Shown: positions 5,779-30,149 of the stretch, in pieces
Position numbering within the stretch: position 1 is the first letter of the stretch
How the letters are laid out: each line of letters starts with the position of its first letter
IMG/VR virus record: IMGVR_UViG_3300005537_000046
Coordinates: 1 to 35,602 of that record
Length of the DNA stretch: 35,602 bases
Source of the DNA: a virus
Strand: one strand, 5' to 3'
The notes under the pieces: model-generated
What the model saw: only the letters and a program-made list of their open reading frames with translations
Databases searched by the model: none
What the model was told of the DNA's origin: nothing
Program-made: the position numbers and the translations under genes

Positions 5779-6113
5779 TGCCCTACGCTGTTATGGGCGA
5801 GACGGAACATGGCGCGGTATGTATTCGACGGGGGTTTCCAAATCGTGAGGCCGCCGAGGATCACCCGGTCAAAATGTCGCTGTGGAAGCGGGTATGGGTT
5901 CAGGCTGAACCTGAACCGAGGAACGATACAGGCGTAGCGGCCCCTCGGCCATGGTCAATAGGCGTGTCGTCGACATCGAGCAATAACGATTCGTTCCATC
6001 TCTACCTCGTTGACGCCAACGGTCGGAAGATCGCAGCCATCTGGGGCCGCTCCGGTGAGAAGCTGGCTACAGCCGAGATGATCCTTGCGGCGATCAACGG
6101 GAGCGAGGAATGA
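5778..6113 (+). CDS. Two-part small phage protein, unknown function
   Basis: A 111-residue protein whose two halves look like separate small modules. Residues 1-45 run MPYAVMGETEHGAVCIRRGF to HPVKMSLWKRVWVQ, and residues 60-111 contain GVSSTSSNNDSFHLYLVDAN and RKIAAIWGRSGEKLATAEMI. Both resemble short proteins I have seen as individual genes in phages of this type, so it may be a fusion. The start at 5778 is set by a TGATG overlap with the rusA stop; a longer frame back to 5688 would overlap rusA. Function unknown. Confidence 0.65.
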   Translation: MPYAVMGETEHGAVCIRRGFPNREAAEDHPVKMSLWKRVWVQAEPEPRNDTGVAAPRPWSIGVSSTSSNNDSFHLYLVDANGRKIAAIWGRSGEKLATAEMILAAINGSEE

Positions 6114-6163
6114 TGTTCGCGCCCGGTCAGATCGTTTGCATCGACTTCCCCTCGCACCCATGA
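6110..6163 (+). CDS. 17-codon leader-like ORF before the methyltransferase
   Basis: ATGATG at 6110-6115 opens a frame of 17 residues (MMFAPGQIVCIDFPSHP). It overlaps the preceding stop by ATGA and its own stop overlaps the methyltransferase ATG by ATGA (6160-6163). GAGCGAGG upstream could serve as ribosome binding site. The methyltransferase itself has no good ribosome binding site (the bases before its ATG are CT-rich), so this mini-ORF probably delivers ribosomes to it. It may be the remnant of a longer gene. Confidence 0.45.
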   Translation: MMFAPGQIVCIDFPSHP

Positions 6164-7470
6164 CCGTTCGCATCATCATCGGCGACGTGCGCGACCGGCT
6201 TCGCGATTTGCCGGCGGATAGCGTCGATTGCGTGGTCACTTCACCGCCTTATTGGGGCTTGCGGGATTATGGAACGGGCGAGTGGGTTGGCGGCGATCCT
6301 GCGTGCCCACATTCAGGGGTCGCGACAGGACCATCAAAAAACCGTGGCAATAATAACTCGATGGGTAAACCGTTTTGCGGCATTTGCGGCGCAGAGCGTC
6401 TTGATCGCCAGCTCGGCATGGAACCGACACTAGGCGAGCATATCGAAACGCTGGTTGATGTATTCCGAGAGATTCGACGCGTTGCAAAGCCTGAAGCGGC
6501 TGTGTGGCTTAATTATGGCGACTGCTATGCGACATCGCCGAATGGTCGTAGCGCGGCGGATACAAAGGCTGCCGGGAACGATGATCGGACGTTTCGAGAT
6601 AAGCCGTTCTCAACGATTGGTCCGGTCTACGATCGATCGCGGCCCAATGTCAGGCAGAAAAAGCATCCTAACGGTACGGAACCCGCTGGACGCATCGTCG
6701 CGGGAGGTTATCTGAAGCCGAAGGATCTATGTCTGATCCCATTCCGGCTCGTGATCGCGCTTCAGGAAGATGGGTGGTGGGTACGCTCCCGTTGTGTGTG
6801 GGGCAAGCCCAATGGGATGCCGGATAGCTCGGGGCGTTGGCGTCCGTCCGTAGCACATGAGGAAATCTTTCTGCTCAGCAAGAGTGGCGATTTGTGGTAC
6901 GACCATGAGGCGGTTATGACGCCGCGCCGCTCCAATGAAGATGCTGTAACGTATCGGGGCGGCTCATACGCGAACGGCAAACCAGGACCACGGCTGCAGC
7001 ACGGAAACAAGCGCGTTCCGGGACCGGACAAGCAACGGGGCCACGCTCGCCGACACCAGGGCTTCAACGACCGATGGGACGGCATGAGCAAAGCCGAGCA
7101 GCAAGAAAACGGAAGACTGCTCCGAACCTATGAGCCCGAGGTGTGGCATATTGCGACTGCCGCATTTTCGGAAGCACATTTTGCGACATTTCCGCCAGCC
7201 TTGGTCGAGCGCTGTCTGATGGCGAGCTGTCCTCCGCGAGGGACTGTCTTAGATCCGTTCGGAGGTTCGGGCACAACCGGCATGGTTGCGGATGGAATGG
7301 GGCACGATGCCATCCTGATTGAGCTGAGCGAAGCCTATGCAGAGATTGCCCGCAAGCGCATCGCCGATGTGTTCCGGCCAGTGTGGGTTGAGCGGGAGGC
7401 TAAGCCGTCGCAAACGGATATGTTCGCAGACAGCTCAGCAGCGCCGCCGATGGGATGCCGATTAGGGTGA
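6160..7470 (+). CDS. Beta-class DNA methyltransferase (N4-cytosine/N6-adenine type)
   Basis: A 436-residue site-specific DNA methyltransferase that transfers a methyl group from S-adenosylmethionine to an exocyclic amino group in DNA. The catalytic motif TSPPY is at residues 27-31, and the AdoMet-binding motif FGGSGTTG comes late, at about 367-374. This order (catalytic before cofactor motif) defines the beta class. Between them is a region with His/Cys residues (CPHSG, then CGICGAERLD) and a conserved segment (VDVFREIRRVAKPEAAVWLN). No restriction enzyme is next to it, so it is probably an orphan enzyme for protection from host restriction or for regulation. The target sequence cannot be read from the gene. 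Translation is likely coupled to the 17-codon ORF. Confidence 0.9.
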   Translation: MTVRIIIGDVRDRLRDLPADSVDCVVTSPPYWGLRDYGTGEWVGGDPACPHSGVATGPSKNRGNNNSMGKPFCGICGAERLDRQLGMEPTLGEHIETLVDVFREIRRVAKPEAAVWLNYGDCYATSPNGRSAADTKAAGNDDRTFRDKPFSTIGPVYDRSRPNVRQKKHPNGTEPAGRIVAGGYLKPKDLCLIPFRLVIALQEDGWWVRSRCVWGKPNGMPDSSGRWRPSVAHEEIFLLSKSGDLWYDHEAVMTPRRSNEDAVTYRGGSYANGKPGPRLQHGNKRVPGPDKQRGHARRHQGFNDRWDGMSKAEQQENGRLLRTYEPEVWHIATAAFSEAHFATFPPALVERCLMASCPPRGTVLDPFGGSGTTGMVADGMGHDAILIELSEAYAEIARKRIADVFRPVWVEREAKPSQTDMFADSSAAPPMGCRLG

Positions 7471-21630: not shown

Positions 21631-22665
21631 ATGGCGATTCCGAATACCAATTGGGGTGAGATCACCACAACCACGCTCTACAACCGTTCGCGCAAACTCG
21701 CGGACAATGTGACAAAAAACAATGCGCTGCTCCGTCGGCTTTCCGAAAAAGGGAAGGTGAAGAGCTTTGACGGTGGCCAGGCGATCGTTCAAGAGCTGGA
21801 ATACAGCGAGAACGGCACGTACAAACGCTATTCCGGGTACGACATTCTGAACATCACGCCGTCGGATGTCTTCACGGCGGCGCAGTTCTCGATTGCGCAG
21901 GCAGCGGTCGCCGTGTCGATCTCGGGACTCGAAATGCTGCAGAACTCGGGCAAGGAGAAGATGATCGATCTTCTCGAAGCCCGGATCGGCAATGCCGAGC
22001 GGACATTCGAGAACAACCTATCGAGCGACTGCTATTCCAACGGCACGGCGGATGGCGGCAAGCAGATCGGGGGCCTTCAGCTCCTCGTTGCCGACGTGGC
22101 GACCTCGGGGACTATCGGGGGCATCAATCGCGCGACCTGGCCGTTCTGGCAGAACAACGTGCAATCGTTCGCGACCGTGGGACTCGTCCCAAGCTCGGCG
22201 ACGATGCAGACCATGATGAACCGCACATGGCTTGCTCAGGCCCGCCAGGCGGATCGCCCGGACCTCATCATCGCCGATAACGTCTATTTCCGCTATTATT
22301 GGGAGAGCCTCCAGGCGATTCAGCGCATCACTCGCGACGATGACGCGATGGCGGGCTTCGCCAGCCTCAAGTTCATGGACGCCGATGTGGTCTATGACGG
22401 CGGCTTTCAGGGCGTAACGGCCGGTAACGGCACCGTGATCAATGGCGCGGGCGTAACGTGGACCTCCGGTTCGGGTGCACCAGCCTCGCACATGTATTTC
22501 CTGAACACGGATTACATCTTCCTGCGGCCTCATCGCGACCGTGATATGGTGCCCTTGGACCCTGATCGGTTTAGTGTCAATCAGGATGCGATGGTTAAGT
22601 TAGTCGGGTGGGCGGGCAACATGACGCTTTCAAATGCCTTCCTTCAGGGCGCCCTCACAGCATGA
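21631..22665 (+). CDS. Major capsid protein
   Basis: A 344-residue protein that builds the head shell. It starts MAIPNTNWGEITTTTLYNRS, followed by RKLADNVTKNNALLRRLSEK, a typical capsid N-arm. The central region has GLEMLQNSGKEKMIDLLEAR (long spine helix) and ADNVYFRYYWESLQAIQRIT. The C-terminal part contains MYFLNTDYIFLRPHRDRDMV. This is the HK97-fold major capsid type found with this portal and scaffold order; no cleaved delta domain is evident. It follows the scaffold-like gene after 46 bases and is followed by an inserted endonuclease gene rather than directly by the decoration gene. Confidence 0.88.
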   Translation: MAIPNTNWGEITTTTLYNRSRKLADNVTKNNALLRRLSEKGKVKSFDGGQAIVQELEYSENGTYKRYSGYDILNITPSDVFTAAQFSIAQAAVAVSISGLEMLQNSGKEKMIDLLEARIGNAERTFENNLSSDCYSNGTADGGKQIGGLQLLVADVATSGTIGGINRATWPFWQNNVQSFATVGLVPSSATMQTMMNRTWLAQARQADRPDLIIADNVYFRYYWESLQAIQRITRDDDAMAGFASLKFMDADVVYDGGFQGVTAGNGTVINGAGVTWTSGSGAPASHMYFLNTDYIFLRPHRDRDMVPLDPDRFSVNQDAMVKLVGWAGNMTLSNAFLQGALTA

Positions 22666-22728: not shown

Positions 22729-23502
22729 ATGAAATTGATCGATCGCAAGGGTCATCGGTACGAGCGCCTGCTTGTCGTCCAGCGTCTTCCGGCAAAGAGC
22801 AAGACAGACACGAATGCGCGCTGGCTCTGCCGCTGCGACTGCGGGCAGTTCACCGTGGCATATGGGCAGGATCTGGAGCGCGGAAAGCAAAAGTCCTGTG
22901 GGTGCCTCAACGCCGATCGCATCATGCAGCACGGCATGTCGCATACTCGCGTTTACCATGTGTGGCAGGCTATGCTGCAACGATGTGAGAATCCCAAGGC
23001 GCAGCGTTATGCCGATTACGGGGGGCGAGGCATCTCGGTTTGCCCTGAATGGCACAAGTTCGAAAATTTCTATCGGGATATGGGAGACCGACCGAAAGGA
23101 TTCTCGATCGAGCGCGAGGATAATAATGGCGACTATGAGCCGGGGAATTGTCGCTGGGCGACGACCAAGGAGCAAATGAACAATCAGCGCCGTAGTCGGG
23201 TCATCGAGATAAACGGGCAAAAGCGTACTCTCGCCGAATGGGCTGAATATGCCGGTATTGGATGGTACACACTGCGTGGGCGTCTTGATCGTTATGGATG
23301 GGATATCGAGAGAGCGTTGACCGATGCTCTACGGGAACCCGTAACCTACGCTTTCGCTGGAAAATCCCTTACTCTTCTTGGCTGGTCACAAGAAACTGGC
23401 ATCAATCTCGATACCCTGCGCAAGCGGATGTCGAAACTTGGTTGGTCTCTCGAAAAGACGCTGACGACAGGGGCGCGGCCCCGAAAGGAGCAAACATCAT
23501 GA
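22729..23502 (+). CDS. Homing-endonuclease-like protein 1
   Basis: A 257-residue protein. It has a Cys-rich N-terminal finger (CRCDCG near residues 35-40 and KSCGCL near 59-64), a central nuclease-like domain with [20 protein letters not shown], then [20 protein letters not shown], and two C-terminal DNA-binding repeats ([20 protein letters not shown] and [18 protein letters not shown]). Such phage proteins are usually annotated as HNH or AP2-like homing endonucleases: free-standing selfish genes that cut sites in related phages lacking them. The first His common in relatives (KHS) is Phe here. It is inserted between the capsid and decoration genes and ends with an ATGA overlap to the latter. 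Confidence 0.75.
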
Positions 23503-24005
23503 CGTGGATTATCTCGGAAAACCGCCTGGGCGTTCAGCCCATCGAGGTTACGTCAACGACGCAGGCGTTCGATGAGGGCACTGAAGTCCGGGCCTATGAT
23601 TCGACCGGCGTTCAGGGCACCGGCGAATTCATCTACCTGAAAGGTGCCGCGAATACGGTCGTGGGAAGTTTGGTCGAATACGATCCGGTCAACCATACCA
23701 CGACCTTGACCCCGAACACGGCCAATCTCGCCGTCCCGGTCGCGGTGGCGATGTCCGCCAATGTGGCGTCGCAATGGGGCTGGTATCAGGTCGGCGGTGC
23801 GGCGGTCATCAAGAAGACGGCCGTGAAGGTGAGCCCGAGCGTAGCGCTTTATCAGAGCGCGACCATCGGGCGGGTGATGTCCACGGCGGCCTCGGGCAAG
23901 CAGCTCGTCAACGCCAGGTCGGTCAATGCGGCGACGGTCGCGTCAGCGACGAGCACGATCACCGCCATACTTGACCGTCCTTTCCTTCAGGGTGCAGTGA
24001 CCTAG
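23499..24005 (+). CDS. Capsid decoration-like protein
   Basis: A 168-residue beta-rich protein: [40 protein letters not shown], then [20 protein letters not shown] and [19 protein letters not shown]. This layout is known from small head proteins encoded directly after the major capsid gene in many phages, thought to bind the shell surface and stabilise it. Here homing-endonuclease-like genes sit on both sides. The start at 23499 makes an ATGA overlap with the first endonuclease gene; a longer frame from 23298 is antisense-like noise. It probably shares transcription with the capsid gene but depends on coupling through the endonuclease gene. Confidence 0.7.
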
Positions 24006-24046: not shown

Positions 24047-24076
24047 GCTCTCTTCTCTATTTTGGGAGAGGAGAGC
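24047..24076 (+). promoter_or_regulatory. 11-bp hairpin covering the second endonuclease ribosome binding site
   Basis: GCTCTCTTCTC (24047-24057) pairs with GAGAGGAGAGC (24066-24076), with one G-T pair and an 8-base loop. The right arm contains GAGAGGAG, the only plausible ribosome binding site for the ATG at 24080. It has the same design as the hairpin at 22690-22728 but no shared sequence. Confidence 0.65.
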
Positions 24077-24079
24077 AAG

Positions 24080-24544
24080 ATGGTCGTTTGGCATGGAATG
24101 GAGGGAACTCCGATTTATGATGCGTGGGCTCACATGATCCAGCGATGTGAAAACCCGAAGAATAAGTATTTCGCCTATTACGGCGGACGCGGGATCAGCG
24201 TGTGCCCCGAGTGGCATAAATTCCCGGCATTTTACCGCGACATGGGAGATAGACCGTCTCCGAAGCACTCTCTCGGTCGCAAGGACAACGATGGCAACTA
24301 TGAACCGGGCAACTGCCGCTGGGAAACGTCGAAACAGCAGATGCGCAACCGCCGCACGACGAAATGGCTTGAGTTCAACGGTGAGCAGCGTCCGCTCGGG
24401 GAGTGGGCCGAATTGCACGGATTGCCGCCCAAGATTGTCAAGGATCGCGTTCTGGCCGGCTGGCGCATGGATGAGGTGCTTCTAATCCCGCATCCCTCGG
24501 ATCGCTGGGTCCGCGCGAGGTACAATGCGGAACTGGCGAAATGA
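24080..24544 (+). CDS. Homing-endonuclease-like protein 2
   Basis: A 154-residue paralogue of the protein at 22729. It shares [40 protein letters not shown], then [20 protein letters not shown], and one DNA-binding repeat (FNGEQRPLGEWAELHGLPPK). It lacks the N-terminal Cys finger and the second repeat. His is kept in KHSLGR, but the usual Asp after Leu is Gly, so activity is uncertain. The ATG at 24080 follows the hairpin directly. It is inserted after the decoration gene, so that gene is bracketed by two related selfish elements. Confidence 0.72.
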   Translation: MVVWHGMEGTPIYDAWAHMIQRCENPKNKYFAYYGGRGISVCPEWHKFPAFYRDMGDRPSPKHSLGRKDNDGNYEPGNCRWETSKQQMRNRRTTKWLEFNGEQRPLGEWAELHGLPPKIVKDRVLAGWRMDEVLLIPHPSDRWVRARYNAELAK

Positions 24545-24548
24545 GATT

Positions 24549-25259
24549 ATGGCTCGCTTTCTGCGGATCGTTCAATGGCAGATCAGGGCGCAACTCGCGC
24601 GCACGGCGAGCCGGCTTATTCTGCATCAATGGCGGGATGACGGCATGAATCTCGTCAAGCTGCGTGAGCGGGTGCCTTGGGCCGAGATCCCGGACGATTG
24701 CGTGGTTCGGGATTTTGCCGTGCTGGGGAGGTTGCCCGTGAGAAGCGCCGCACTGGCGCGGGAGATCCCCGAGGTGCCGTTACGGTTGGTGATCGGGCGT
24801 CGGGTCGATATTGGCAGCCATGCGGTGATTTACGCGGACGTGGAGATTGGCGAGGATACGCTGATCGGCGATCAGGCGAACGTTCGTGAGGGTTGTCGGA
24901 TCGGCAAGCGGTGCATTATCGGGCAGGGCGTGAGTCTGCATTACGGGGTGCAGATCGGCGATGATGTGAAGATCATGAACGGTACCCACATCACCGGAGG
25001 AATGCGGATTGGAAATGGATGCTTCATCGGGGTCGGGGTTGTTACCAGCAACGATCGGCGCGTGAATATGGCAGAGTATCGGTTCCATGGGATTCAGCCA
25101 CCGGTCTTGGGCGAACGCGTGATGGTGGGATCGGGGGCAAATATTCTGGCGGGAGTGAAGATTGGTGATGGCGCTGTGATCGCAGCGGGGGCGCTTGTCG
25201 TGAAGGATGTCCCGGCCGGCGTGACGATGTTGGGGCCACCGGCGCAGAGGGTGGCATGA
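24549..25259 (+). CDS. Hexapeptide-repeat acyltransferase
   Basis: A 236-residue enzyme of the left-handed beta-helix acyltransferase class (which includes acetyltransferases for sugars). Hexapeptide repeats run from about residue 85 to the end: IGRRVDIGSHAVIYADVEIG, TLIGDQANVREGCRIGKRCI, IGQGVSLHYGVQIGDDVKIM and GANILAGVKIGDGAVIAAGA. The usual VVKDVPAG end loop is present, and a His in the SLHYG/THITGG area could be catalytic. The first 30 residues are a more hydrophobic helix; a start at 24646 (MNLVKLRE) is possible. The stop overlaps the next gene by ATGA. Together they look like a unit that adds acyl and sugar groups, target unknown. Confidence 0.85.
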   Translation: MARFLRIVQWQIRAQLARTASRLILHQWRDDGMNLVKLRERVPWAEIPDDCVVRDFAVLGRLPVRSAALAREIPEVPLRLVIGRRVDIGSHAVIYADVEIGEDTLIGDQANVREGCRIGKRCIIGQGVSLHYGVQIGDDVKIMNGTHITGGMRIGNGCFIGVGVVTSNDRRVNMAEYRFHGIQPPVLGERVMVGSGANILAGVKIGDGAVIAAGALVVKDVPAGVTMLGPPAQRVA

Positions 25260-26686
25260 ACGTCGTTTCTTTTTTCGCTCCCCGCCACGAGCATCCTTTC
25301 TATCAGGATTACACCCCCTTTCTGGATATCCTGCGGGCGTCCTGTGCGAAGTTTGGGCATCGGCATCTGGTCATTACCGACGATCCGAAGATGGGGCCAG
25401 ATGCGTTTGGGGTGGCCCTCCCGCACAATCTGATGAAGGCGATCATTCAGGGACAGCTCGCCTATCTGAACTCGCGTGAGGCGCTGGAAGATACGGTTTT
25501 CGTCGGGGCCGATTGCGTTCTCGCAAGAGACCCGGCCGAAGTCTTCAAGATGCCGTTCGATGTCGCGTTCACGACGGGTCCTTTCAGCGATTGCATCCTC
25601 AATACGGGGGCGATTTTCATTCGTGGTGGCGCAGACGTGAGGCATATCTGGGCCAAAGCGTTTGCGGGAATGGGCGAGGAGTGGGGCGACGATCAGAAAG
25701 CATTAGCCGCTGTCGTGAGTCCGACGATCGAGCCGAGCATTACGGCCGGAGACGGGCCGATCATCCGGTTTCTCCCCGTAGATCCCTACAATCTGGCGCC
25801 GGAATACCCGGATGACGATTGCATGAGGGGGGTTATTCTGCACTTTCGGGGGCCGCGCAAGGCGTGGATGAAGGACTATTGCGCCAAATGGCTCGGGATC
25901 GGCGAGCGCGTGGTTTGGCAGATCCTCCCCAATACGTCGAAAGAAGCTGTTTGGCGCAATGTGGAGGCGAATAGCCGCCTCGTGCTGCCATGGGTCAAGG
26001 AAATGCCTCACCATGACGGTCACGCGGTGATCGTTGGGGGCGGTCCCTCGGCGATTGACACGCTGGTGGATGTCAGAGAGCGGCAGAAGCACGGCCAGGA
26101 CGTGTTTGCGCTCAACGGTGTTGCTCAATGGCTCGCGCAATACGGGATTTTTCCGAAATATCAGGTGATTCTTGATTCCAGACCGGAGAATCGGCGGTTT
26201 GTGAGGCCGATTTCGGCTGAAAAGTTCCTTATCGCCTCGCAATGCGATCCTGGAGTGTTCGCTGCGCTTTCTGGGCAGGATGTGACGCTGTTTCATCATG
26301 CCGAGGAAGGGATCACGAAGCACTTTGAGGGCACTTCGGTCTTGATTGGGGGCGGAATCACGGTCGGCCTGACGGCAATGGCATTGGTCTATGCCCTCGG
26401 CTATCGGCAGATGCACCTCTACGGGTATGACAGCTCGGATCGGGATGGTTCGGGGCACGCTTACGAGCAATCGGAGAGCGGGCCGGACAGTCAGCGGAGA
26501 GATGTTTGGCTTGGGCGCAGGAAATACTCATGTGCTCCTGCCATGTATGCCCAGGCGCAAGCGTTTCCTGAGTTTGCCGAACTTCTGCGGCGGCATGACG
26601 TGACGATCACGGTTCACGGATCTGGGCTTCTGCCCGATATCGCCCGGCAAACCTATGGTTCATTGAACGCCACGATGGCGGCTTAG
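25256..26686 (+). CDS. Glycosyltransferase-like/DUF115-like fusion protein
   Basis: A 476-residue protein with two parts. Residues 1-225 resemble a nucleotide-sugar transferase fold: VVSFFAPRHEHPFYQDY, the acidic VFVGADCVLARDP (81-93) and ILNTGAIFIRGG. Residues 250-476 match the DUF115 type, seen in flagellin-glycosylation (Maf-like) and MptE-like proteins: HAVIVGGGPSAIDTL (256-270), FALNGVAQWLAQYGIFPKY, LDSRPEN (306-312) and LVYALGYRQMHLYGYDSSD. It probably transfers a sugar to a protein or glycan. Its place in the middle of head genes, coupled to an acyltransferase by ATGA, suggests modification of virion or host surface. Substrate unknown. Confidence 0.75.
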   Translation: MNVVSFFAPRHEHPFYQDYTPFLDILRASCAKFGHRHLVITDDPKMGPDAFGVALPHNLMKAIIQGQLAYLNSREALEDTVFVGADCVLARDPAEVFKMPFDVAFTTGPFSDCILNTGAIFIRGGADVRHIWAKAFAGMGEEWGDDQKALAAVVSPTIEPSITAGDGPIIRFLPVDPYNLAPEYPDDDCMRGVILHFRGPRKAWMKDYCAKWLGIGERVVWQILPNTSKEAVWRNVEANSRLVLPWVKEMPHHDGHAVIVGGGPSAIDTLVDVRERQKHGQDVFALNGVAQWLAQYGIFPKYQVILDSRPENRRFVRPISAEKFLIASQCDPGVFAALSGQDVTLFHHAEEGITKHFEGTSVLIGGGITVGLTAMALVYALGYRQMHLYGYDSSDRDGSGHAYEQSESGPDSQRRDVWLGRRKYSCAPAMYAQAQAFPEFAELLRRHDVTITVHGSGLLPDIARQTYGSLNATMAA

Positions 26687-26698
26687 AGGAGAAACAGA

Positions 26699-27064
26699 AT
26701 GGCGCTCAAATCGGAATTGATGGCCCTTGGTTTGCCGGCAAAGCTTGCCGAGAGGTTGGGCTTCGATGCTTCCCAAACCGTAGCGGCGGCCGGTACGAAT
26801 CAGGCCACGGCGACTGTTTTGGTGGGGAATTTCACGATCATCTCGACAGCTCCCGCGAGCACTGGCGTGCTCCTTCAATCGGTTGGAAGTGGAGGGATTC
26901 AGGCGATCTACAATGCCGGGGCCAATACTGTGAAGGTCTACGGAAACGGCACCGACACGATCAACGGAATCGCCGGTTCAACCGGGATCTCGGTGCCCAC
27001 GGCGAAAAGTGCGACTTTCTTCGCCTGCGGAGCGGGTGGGTTCATCGGCAATGTGAGCGCATAA
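26699..27064 (+). CDS. Small virion-associated protein (121 aa)
   Basis: A 121-residue beta-rich protein: MALKSELMALGLPAKLAERL, then ATVLVGNFTIISTAPASTGV, AIYNAGANTVKVYGNGTDT and SVPTAKSATFFACGAGGFIG. It belongs to a frequent phage family found after the capsid genes and thought to be a head or head-tail structural component. GAGGAGAAAC gives it a strong ribosome binding site. The short gap after the glycan pair suggests an original place next to the decoration gene before the accessory genes came in. Confidence 0.65.
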   Translation: MALKSELMALGLPAKLAERLGFDASQTVAAAGTNQATATVLVGNFTIISTAPASTGVLLQSVGSGGIQAIYNAGANTVKVYGNGTDTINGIAGSTGISVPTAKSATFFACGAGGFIGNVSA

Positions 27065-27073
27065 GGAGTTTTC

Positions 27074-27826
27074 ATGCAAGGGCAATACACGCGTTCGTGG
27101 GCCGGTGGGGAGCAATCCGCTCCGGGTAGTGTTCGGCCTCGGTTCTACATAGATCCGGTGCAGGACGAGCTTGCGTCGGCACGAGAGGGGCGCCCGATCT
27201 TCCGTGAAGTTGAGCGGGTCGAGATTTTCCTTCCGGGCAATCCCTATACGATGCCGGTCGAGAATGTCACGGACGAACATCGGCAGCGTTGGCCGCGCGA
27301 ATACGAGATGTTTCGCCAGGGGATCGAACAGACCGCGGACGGAACTCCGTTGGGCGAATGGCCGATCCTCAATCGTGCTCAGGTTTTGGAACTGAAAGGT
27401 TTACAGATCCAGACCATCGAGGAGGTGGCGGCTCTTTCGGATACGGCATGCCAGCGGGCTATGGGGTTGATGCAGCTTCGTACCAAGGCCCAGGCGTATC
27501 TCGATGACGCAGCGGCAATGGCTTTGACCGAGCAGTTGAGCAAGGAAGGGGAGATCCAGCGCTCGCAAATCGCTTCGCTTGAGCGTCAGGTCGCTGAACT
27601 GAGCGATTTGACGAGCAAGCTCCACGGTGAGCTGATGGCGATGCGTAACGCTCCGCACCCGGTGGCGACGGCCATTCCGGGGATGAGCGATCCCGCACAA
27701 CAGGCGGCATGGGGAACGATGCAGGGGGCTGCCCCGCCGCGCGAGGACCCGCGTTCGACGCTTGGAGCCTTTGTGAATGAGAAGCGCCGGCCGGGGCGTC
27801 CACGTAAGACGGAGGAGGCAGCGTAA
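27074..27826 (+). CDS. Conserved phage structural-region protein with coiled coil
   Basis: A 250-residue protein: PRFYIDPVQDELASAREGRP, then FLPGNPYTMPVENVTDEHRQ, RWPREYEMFRQGIEQ and a coiled coil (EIQRSQIASLERQVAELSDL). The RAQVLELKGLQIQTIEEVAA segment looks like a helix-hairpin-helix-like domain. The end RRPGRPRKTEEAA is an AT-hook-like basic tail. I know this arrangement as a common phage family between capsid and tail genes, without a settled role. AAGGAG precedes the start. The stop overlaps the next ATG as TAATG. Confidence 0.65.
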   Translation: MQGQYTRSWAGGEQSAPGSVRPRFYIDPVQDELASAREGRPIFREVERVEIFLPGNPYTMPVENVTDEHRQRWPREYEMFRQGIEQTADGTPLGEWPILNRAQVLELKGLQIQTIEEVAALSDTACQRAMGLMQLRTKAQAYLDDAAAMALTEQLSKEGEIQRSQIASLERQVAELSDLTSKLHGELMAMRNAPHPVATAIPGMSDPAQQAAWGTMQGAAPPREDPRSTLGAFVNEKRRPGRPRKTEEAA

Positions 27827-28579: not shown

Positions 28580-29653
28580 ATGAGCTTGTTGTCGTTATGC
28601 GTCAACGCGTGCCAGGATGTCGGCGTTGATTCTCCGACTTCGATTATAGGGAACGCAGCGCCCTCGGCACAGAGGCTTCTGCAATTGGCCCGCCGGGAGG
28701 CTTACAATCTCTCGCGGAGGGCGAATTGGGCCGCGATGGTGGTGGAATGGGAGTTCATCGCCAACGGCTCGTCCGATTATCCGTTGCCGCCTGATTTCCG
28801 GTCGTTTGTTGACGATACGATGTGGGATCGCACTCGGTTCTGGCGCATGCGCGGAGCGATGACGCCGCAGCAATGGCAACTCTATAAATCGAGTGTTATC
28901 GGGCGCGCGACGGTTGAAAGACGCTGGCGGATGCATATCCCTTCCGGGGCCCCCGATGGGGAAGCGGTAGTTTTCTCGATCGACCCCGCTCTTGGGGCAA
29001 CCGATACGTCGTCGCAGTTCGTCTTTGAATACGTGTCAAAGAATTGGTGCCGCAGCGCGACGACCTATTCAATCGATGAATTGACGGTAGACCCGAGTGT
29101 TTTGCTCACGGGTGGGGGAAATCTGCTCACTGGTGGCGGAAATCTGCTGATGTCAACTTACTGGGGAGGAACCGGGTTTGCCGTAGGGGACCAGTTCTCC
29201 ATTGTAGGGGGAACATCAACCGTTGCGGCGACAGGTGTTGTGACGGCGCTCGATCCAACGACAGGGACAGGCATTCTCACTGCCGCAGTGGTGGATCCGG
29301 GAATCTATACGGTGCTTCCCGCAAGCCCGGCGGCGATGGTCGCGACAACAGGCTCAGGTTCGGGCGCTAGGTTCACGATCAATAGTACGTCCGCACCGGG
29401 GCACACGCAATCCGATTGGATCGCGGATACCGATACGGCGATCCTTGACGAGGATCTCATTGAGATGGGCGTCATCTGGCGCCTGATGCGTCGTCTCGGC
29501 ATTGCTTATGATGAGGAATTGAACGAATACGAGGTTCAGGTCCGGCAGGCAATTGCGCGGGATGGCGGAACACAAATCCTCAATCTTGCGCCATATGATA
29601 AGCTGACGCTGGTTGGGCCATGGAATTTACAAGAGGGAAATTTCCCAGGATAA
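28580..29653 (+). CDS. Head-tail adaptor protein with inserted beta-repeat domain
   Basis: A 357-residue protein. The first 165 residues (LLQLARREAYNLSRRANWAA; DYPLPPDFRSFVDDTMWDRT) and the last 60 (VIWRLMRRLGIAYDEELNEY; EVQVRQAIARDGG) match the adaptor/tail-tubular-A-like proteins that sit under the portal in short-tailed phages. Between residues about 175 and 275 is an extra Gly/Thr-rich beta domain (TYWGGTGFAVGDQFSIVGGT; ILTAAVVDPGIYTVLPAS), introduced by a duplicated LLTGGGNLLTGGGNLL. That domain resembles repeats seen in phage surface proteins and probably faces outward. It is complete and followed by an HNH gene. Confidence 0.75.
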   Translation: MSLLSLCVNACQDVGVDSPTSIIGNAAPSAQRLLQLARREAYNLSRRANWAAMVVEWEFIANGSSDYPLPPDFRSFVDDTMWDRTRFWRMRGAMTPQQWQLYKSSVIGRATVERRWRMHIPSGAPDGEAVVFSIDPALGATDTSSQFVFEYVSKNWCRSATTYSIDELTVDPSVLLTGGGNLLTGGGNLLMSTYWGGTGFAVGDQFSIVGGTSTVAATGVVTALDPTTGTGILTAAVVDPGIYTVLPASPAAMVATTGSGSGARFTINSTSAPGHTQSDWIADTDTAILDEDLIEMGVIWRLMRRLGIAYDEELNEYEVQVRQAIARDGGTQILNLAPYDKLTLVGPWNLQEGNFPG

Positions 29654-29657
29654 GATA

Positions 29658-30149
29658 ATGCCGAGAAAAAGACAGAACTTATCAGACGCATTTGATGATC
29701 GGTACATACCAGAACCTAATAGTGGATGCTGGTTATGGACGGGTGATCGAAGCGGCCAATCTGGATATGGGGCTTTGCTACTAAACAAGGTTCCATTGGG
29801 GGACGGGAGATATCGGAAGATCCGTGAATACGCTCATCGCTTATCATGGCTTTTGCATGAGGGTGATATTCCCGATGGGATAAGGGTGCTTCATCGATGT
29901 GATAATCCGGCATGCGTCAATCCCGATCATCTCTTCCTTGGGACATCGGCTGATAACTCACGTGATGCAATGATGAAGGGTCGCCTCAGCAAAGGATCGC
30001 ATCGGCCGCTGGCTAAACTGACCGAAGCAGATATCCCGGCGATCCGGGCTTCAAACAAGAGCCTTACCGAAACTGCCGCGCAATACGGCGTGGTGTTTCA
30101 AACGATCAGCGACATTCGCCGACGCAAGACGTGGAGGCACGTAGGATAA
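29658..30149 (+). CDS. HNH homing endonuclease (HNH_3 type)
   Basis: A 163-residue HNH nuclease. The N-terminus has a Trp/Cys motif (IPEPNSGCWLWTG), the core reads AHRLSWLLHEGDIPDGIRV, then LHRCDNPACVNPDHLFLG (the H, N and H positions with Cys residues), and the C-terminus has a NUMOD-like DNA-binding helix (LTETAAQYGVVFQTISDIRR). It belongs to the HNH_3 group typical of free-standing and intron homing endonucleases. AGGATAAG is the ribosome binding site; a palindrome GGGAAATTTCCC (29635-29646) lies just before it, inside the adaptor gene's end. It is the third mobile nuclease gene in the structural region and lies 4 bases after the adaptor stop. Confidence 0.85.
   Translation: MPRKRQNLSDAFDDRYIPEPNSGCWLWTGDRSGQSGYGALLLNKVPLGDGRYRKIREYAHRLSWLLHEGDIPDGIRVLHRCDNPACVNPDHLFLGTSADNSRDAMMKGRLSKGSHRPLAKLTEADIPAIRASNKSLTETAAQYGVVFQTISDIRRRKTWRHVG

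Follow-up and report, generated by a model that had tools for sequence, protein, structure and literature searches.

Why should a phage keep two sugar-acting enzymes among the genes that build its head? The question, part of the wider one of why glycosyltransferase genes occur among the structural operons of phages, is raised by a soil phage represented by a 35.6-kb linear virus record, analysed here over its whole length and referred to below as the window. An earlier note on this DNA had described an acyltransferase gene coupled by ATGA to a two-domain glycosyltransferase/DUF115 gene, and we recovered both open reading frames (ORFs) at the same positions, with matches to the domain families it named: ORF 1 encodes 244 amino acids (24525-25259; the start given earlier was 24549), and ORF 2, of 476 amino acids (25256-26686), overlaps it by the ATGA, its start lying inside the ORF 1 stop. 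A later start of ORF 1, at 24645, is also plausible, since roughly the first 42 residues are disordered in the predicted model. The pair does not owe its existence to chance, because homologues of both ORFs are kept in the same order in other phages and the pN/pS of ORF 2 is about 0.3.

The pair sits in an Mx8-type head operon (Table 1), in which the major capsid protein shares 47% identity with its Mx8 counterpart, the major head protein, and the Mx8 homologue of the decoration protein carries the annotation 'virion structural protein'. The placement proposed earlier, between the decoration gene and another virion gene, holds in part: the pair does lie in the head operon near the decoration gene, but an HNH gene that is missing from several relatives intervenes; and a gene does follow downstream, whose product has no PHROG or Pfam match and may be a virion protein. 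Three HNH endonuclease-like genes are scattered through the head/neck operon (22729-23502, 24062-24544 and 29613-30149); the first two flank the decoration gene, are absent at the same points in loci such as L004 and L014, and resemble mobile homing endonucleases. The small gene downstream has homologues at the same place in L002-L022 and in L026/L028. A motif, MALKSELMAxGMPxxxAxxLG, stands at the N-terminus of otherwise different small proteins directly 3' of the cassette (26699-27064; L018:9457-10053; L024:12572-13168; L013:7403-8191), as though exchangeable ectodomains sat on a common anchor; these proteins are possibly head fibres. Far upstream, the early region holds a fused or extended DNA methyltransferase-like ORF (6085-7470; phrog_67).

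Table 1. Features of the window around the enzyme pair, with positions in the window and the basis of each assignment.
Feature	Position	Strand	Basis or remark
Terminase	13173, 14033		head gene block
Portal	16057		head gene block
Major capsid protein, Mx8-type head	21631..22665	+	phrog_9953, PHROG E=6e-111
Decoration/virion structural protein, 168 aa, proposed acceptor	23499..24005 (real start 23499)	+	phrog_29386 E=1.3e-25
KKTAVK motif of decoration protein, residues 105-110	23811..23828	+	T107 column
Ser/Thr tract TVASATST, decoration residues 146-153, candidate O-glycosylation site	23934..23957	+	S/T frequencies
HNH endonuclease-like gene between decoration gene and cassette	24062..24544	+	phrog_3377 E=5e-51
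Hexapeptide acetyltransferase, QdtC/WxcM/NeuD-like sugar type	24549..25259 (start perhaps 24645)	+	Pfam Hexapep 1.4e-28
N-terminal GT8/glycogenin-like GT-A domain, residues 1-215	25256..25900	+	profile and Foldseek
C-terminal PF01973 (DUF115/MptE-like) domain, Maf-like, residues 220-470	25913..26665	+	PF01973 3.9e-12
Small protein, N-terminal MALKSELMALGLPA-type motif, possible surface protein or alternative acceptor	26699..27064	+	same-place homologues
Conserved head/neck-region gene, right border of cassette site	27074..27826	+	phrog_20268
Adaptor, SU10-adaptor-like, right anchor of survey	28580..29653	+	phrog_6013 5.1e-43; Pfam SU10_adaptor 1.1e-5

Of the two enzymes we take ORF 2 first, for which the predicted model is good (pLDDT 90.4). 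Its C-terminal half matches PF01973 over residues 254-396 at 46.7 bits, above the curated cut-off of 34.6. The tie of DUF115 proteins to flagellin glycosylation, on which the earlier note had drawn, is borne out, as the Maf structure 5MU5 leads the matches of this domain both by profile (E=5.3e-14) and by Foldseek (4.1e-9). 5MU5 is described as putatively transferring pseudaminic acid to flagellin (PMC9298399), and Maf enzymes attach nonulosonic acids in O-linkage to Ser/Thr of flagellin (PMC11339370). The domain belongs to the Maf-type central alpha/beta domains, the alignment covering only the central residues 269-430 of 5MU5; the transferase is not classed as a Maf, because the Maf N- and C-terminal domains are not matched and its own N-terminal half is a GT8-like GT-A domain. 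This half has the GT8 fold and a glycogenin-type core (Glycogenin-2 profile, E=3.9e-7; Foldseek, 1.3e-5), and residues H196, G199, K202, W204 and D145-D146-Q147 are invariant among relatives, with the motif HFRGxRKxW. In the window family Gly84 takes the place of the first Asp of the GT8 DXD motif, which reads G-A-D; in the sister GTA2-type domain it reads D-L-D. The protein found no sequence match among 50,697 phage records or in PHROGs; annotated MptE-like proteins of uncultured Caudovirales resemble it structurally.

ORF 1 encodes a member of the hexapeptide-repeat family (97.8 bits against a curated cut-off of 27), with QdtC (1.6e-31) and a WxcM-like protein (9.8e-23) as its closest solved relatives by profile comparison with the PDB. 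Of all NCBIfam models, TIGR03570 (NeuD/PglD/VioB) scored highest with each of three members, at 90-104 bits, below its cut-off of 160.8. Most members conserve an Asn-Asp pair at about residues 168-169 that aligns with QdtC and WxcM, and the alignment has no invariant His. As for the left-handed beta-helix proposed earlier, the sequence profiles agree with it, whereas the AlphaFold model, of low confidence (pLDDT 69), retrieved no left-handed helices and made the fold search uninformative; structure prediction, which the note had suggested for both domains, served for the transferase only.

Elsewhere the pair keeps its place. The transferase recurs, at 65-73% identity, in thirteen IMG/VR loci, and wherever their flanks suffice the genes follow one another as capsid - decoration - acetyltransferase - transferase - 26699 - 27074. 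In a survey anchored on the capsid protein, 105 loci were complete from the major capsid to the adaptor gene; a DUF115 gene lies within this interval in 28 of them, and no GT domain of the types searched was found in the intervals that lack one. All 10 complete loci with the acetyltransferase, some of which are near-identical records, have the window-type GT-A+DUF115 protein, and none of the 77 loci without DUF115 has the acetyltransferase; the phage survey proposed in the earlier note therefore finds the pair recurring at the same site, the acetyltransferase never without a DUF115 gene. A second search used the cassette proteins alone as queries, leaving the capsid aside, and counted only loci with enough flank: a head gene (MCP/decoration) lay upstream of the cassette in 37/37 (32/32 and 5/5), and the 27074-type or adaptor gene downstream in 47/47 (39/39 and 8/8). 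The position is locked, and in all cases it is inside the late head operon.

Within this position the contents are swapped. The acetyltransferase is replaced in sister cassettes by Methyltransf_24, FkbM or Methyltransf_23/25 at the capping position, different GT domains are also exchanged, and L036 has at the cassette site a GT2-like protein with an NDP-sugar-type C-methyltransferase (Methyltransf_13/14). The interval is without a cassette in Bradyrhizobium phage ppBjS10J-1 and in the myxophage Mx8, an empty site where the 27074-type gene directly follows the decoration gene. Capsid relatedness does not predict the content: the window type is found in L022, whose capsid is only 66% identical, whereas L024 (89%) has another cassette and L026 (87%) lacks one, which argues for swapping and not for simple inheritance. 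On the MCP tree, cassette presence requires 15 changes by parsimony, at least 7 of them forced by supported branches. A locus with an unrelated capsid, L023 (6640-9771), holds between capsid and adaptor a TPR protein with a GT-like second half, a GT-A gene, a Methyltransf_24 gene (46% identical to one in a sister cassette) and a GT8-like gene; we keep it, as an analogy only, for another lineage whose glycan cassette occupies the equivalent place.

If the cassette acts on the virion, its left neighbour is the candidate acceptor. No relative of the decoration family was found in Pfam or the PDB; its C-terminal half reads KKTAV...SAT-GR...AN-ATV-S-TSTV in cassette carriers and is a different sequence elsewhere. 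The T107 column is Ser/Thr in 93% of cassette-positive and 23% of cassette-negative loci, and positions 146, 149, 151 and 152 are Ser/Thr in 95, 88, 81 and 93% with the cassette vs 12, 15, 15 and 19% without it. As this contrast had been noticed only post hoc, 157 new loci were fetched for an out-of-sample test. A motif test fixed beforehand (regex and Ser/Thr window, all DUF115 cassettes) failed on them, with KTA in 3/30 vs 5/66 and the tract in 7/30 vs 18/66. A profile of the C-terminal half, built from the discovery-set decoration proteins only, scored 91-108 bits in 7/7 new loci with a GT-A cassette; the remaining 89 loci, among them 23 with DUF115 but not this type of GT-A, did not exceed 34 bits. 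The link between decoration protein and cassette is thus confined to GT-A-containing cassettes, and the covariation remains exploratory, because this restriction was made after the motif test had failed. Independent pairs on the capsid tree were concordant in 6/6 cases of the new set, with 0 opposite (p=0.031); the combined set gave 14 supported independent pairs, about 13 concordant and 0 opposite (p ~0.0002), the profile being missing from 2 of its 48 GT cassettes (L186 and L199). Ser and Thr together make up 21% vs 15% of the whole decoration protein in the discovery set, but the contrast is weaker in the new set (19.8% vs 17.7%), and so we rely on the profile and tree tests. Another decoration C-terminus, VAAVASATAGRTTVxVMIxRPxKQGR, recurs in loci with DUF115 and Methyltransf_25/23 (L316, L318, L328, L367, L373 and L070); to judge from these sequences, a particular decoration tail may go with every type of cassette.

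Since the decoration C-terminus adjoins the cassette, the two could be transferred together without functional coupling. The acceptor would then be another virion protein (the major capsid, 26699-type or a tail protein), with the decoration C-terminus co-travelling by recombination, an explanation that we consider unlikely. Co-transfer is what one expects of the left neighbour; the right neighbour of the 26699 type is commoner in cassette-positive loci (22/56 vs 6/74); and the phage virion glycosylation known from Che8 and Rita is reported on major capsid proteins, as cited in PMC11256854. A comparison of label changes between trees served as a control for simple hitchhiking: the number of changes in the GT-cassette label was 3 for the C-half of the decoration protein and 8 for its N-half, 12 for the MCP, 13 for that end of the capsid protein which lies closest to the decoration gene, 11 for 27074, with 14 for the end of it that faces the cassette, and 10 for the adaptor. 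The flanking proteins do not covary with the GT-A cassette, and 27074, also to the right, is unassociated with it (11-14 changes vs 3 for the decoration C-half), which speaks against mere neighbourhood, as does the fact that the decoration columns linked to the cassette are specifically Ser/Thr. A breakpoint inside the decoration gene could mean that recombination explains part of the covariation. The 26699-type protein was not supported as the acceptor, its presence falling short of significance on independent pairs.

We somewhat favour the reading in which a horizontally exchanged cassette, which includes a sugar-capping enzyme, O-glycosylates the particle of the phage itself, with the decoration protein as the likeliest acceptor. 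Read from the genes, the enzymatic activities, the donor, the acceptor residue, the order of the two transfer steps and the benefit would be part of the following course. Late in infection, with the head operon on, the soluble two-domain transferase would meet new decoration protein in the cytoplasm, and its Maf-like and/or GT8-like domain would put one or more sugars derived from host nucleotide sugars on Ser/Thr of the decoration C-terminal half, TVASATST being the candidate target tract. The QdtC/NeuD-like enzyme would acetylate the sugar, whether still bound to the nucleotide donor or already transferred; in the sister cassettes the methyltransferases would fill this role. The glycosylated decoration protein would then assemble onto the capsid, modification occurring before or during assembly. 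The particle might thereby be shielded against receptors, antibodies or proteases, or might adsorb differently. The donors would have to be host-derived, as the contigs yielded no gene for a nonulosonic donor: CTP_transf_3 was absent from the 16 phage contigs searched, and Epimerase genes from the phage contigs searched. Cytoplasmic O-glycosylation of a virion protein, in the manner of Maf on flagellin, is the most economical reading of the locus.

The earlier note had left the target between the phage's own capsid or decoration protein and the host surface. The locked position and the covariation of the decoration C-half favour the former, and no flippase, membrane or donor-synthesis partner was seen next to the cassette. 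In the latter case (ALTERNATIVES), the infected or lysogenic cell would have its lipopolysaccharide, capsule or flagellin modified and superinfection would be blocked. This we regard as distinctly improbable, even though Maf-like and QdtC/NeuD-like enzymes work in bacterial surface glycan and flagellin pathways and PHROGs classes related phage glycosyltransferases as morons: the cassette is always in the late head operon, is not accompanied by a flippase or membrane gene, and has a decoration protein that covaries with it. The lifestyle of the carriers is mixed, G004 (L030), with the same cassette, carrying an integrase, and the closest relatives, G001-G003 (45-58 kb, possibly incomplete), having none.

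Two further readings were rejected for lack of support. It is very improbable that the DUF115 domain is an MptE-type 6-hydroxymethylpterin diphosphokinase or has another role in host metabolism: Pfam names PF01973 after MptE, and it matches M. jannaschii HPPK (8SD5) in structure (E=4.7e-5) and, more weakly, by profile (9.1e-6), but Maf is the far better match by both methods, the partners to which the domain is fused or next to which it is encoded are GT-A, GT8- or GT2-like domains and enzymes that modify sugars, and no pterin genes were noticed nearby. DNA glucosylation is known in phages, and the window has a DNA methyltransferase-like gene in its early region, but that these enzymes glycosylate phage DNA and not protein is scarcely credible, as no base-hypermodification genes were seen, the enzyme families here act on proteins and sugars, and both the head-operon position and the link to the decoration protein would be unexpected.

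The O-glycosylation reading can be extended, tentatively and as something we would not yet call probable, to a whole lineage of Mx8-type phages: an exchangeable cassette and a Ser/Thr-rich decoration tail would be gained and lost together, giving swappable capsid glycan coats. We are equally hesitant about the make-up of such coats, in which a Maf-like transferase, interchangeable GT-A domains and interchangeable acetyl or methyl caps would be combined between the decoration and neck genes. Position and covariation here link one type of cassette with a single small decoration protein, and a predicted acceptor segment comes together with its enzyme and with natural cassette-free controls such as Mx8. 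If true, these proposals would suggest a modular evolution of phage surface glycans, with relevance to adsorption, to the immune recognition of phages and to cytoplasmic glyco-engineering.

To our knowledge, few cases of glycosylated phage particles have been described. In the non-subscription literature searched, we found no described system with this pair, as the earlier note had supposed, nothing on DUF115/MptE-like proteins in phage glycosylation, and no account of a phage capsid modified by a Maf-like enzyme or of a decoration-protein tail coupled to such a cassette. Several known systems nevertheless share parts of the cassette: (i) Phage virion glycosylation is reported in mycobacteriophages Che8 and Rita, whose glycosyltransferases are proposed or shown to glycosylate virion proteins; in this account (PMC11256854) the glycosyltransferase genes of the F1 phage Maravista lie near the genome 3' end and not beside the decoration gene, no Maf-like domain or acetyltransferase pair is mentioned, and the hosts differ. 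(ii) P1/P7 HdmD has a GT-A domain related to the GTA2 of the sister cassettes, and its gene is annotated as head morphogenesis; it is without the DUF115 domain or an acetyltransferase and belongs to a different phage type. The P7 hdmD locus (L144, 4983-5684) is a GT-A domain gene whose target is apparently undescribed. (iii) The PBCV-1 glycosyltransferase (PDB 2P72), annotated as glycosylating the PBCV-1 major capsid, is a structural match to the GT-A domain; the likeness is at fold level only, and this algal virus enzyme is without a Maf-like domain. (iv) FlmG of Caulobacter crescentus, a cytoplasmic TPR and GT-B flagellin O-glycosyltransferase with a pseudaminic acid donor (PMC7591256), finds a parallel in the TPR protein with a GT-like second half at the equivalent site of the unrelated phage L023, and has no sequence relation to the DUF115 protein of the window. 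(v) The QdtC/WxcM/NeuD-PglD enzymes are the best profile matches to the phage acetyltransferase, which, unlike them, is free-standing and coupled to a transferase gene, and which scores below the NeuD curated cut-off. (vi) The Maf flagellin glycosyltransferases, such as M. magneticum 5MU5, C. jejuni Maf4 and C. botulinum Maf, have in common with the phage enzyme the PF01973 central domain, with a profile match that spans the GxGPS, TV and FG-D-H segments, and a soluble, cytoplasmic type of O-glycosylation, predicted in the case of the phage. They differ from it in that the phage gene belongs to a head operon and not to a flagellar locus, that its product begins with a GT8-like GT-A domain and not with the Maf N-terminal domain, and that the putative acceptor is a capsid decoration protein, which, if true, would extend Maf-type O-glycosylation beyond flagellin.
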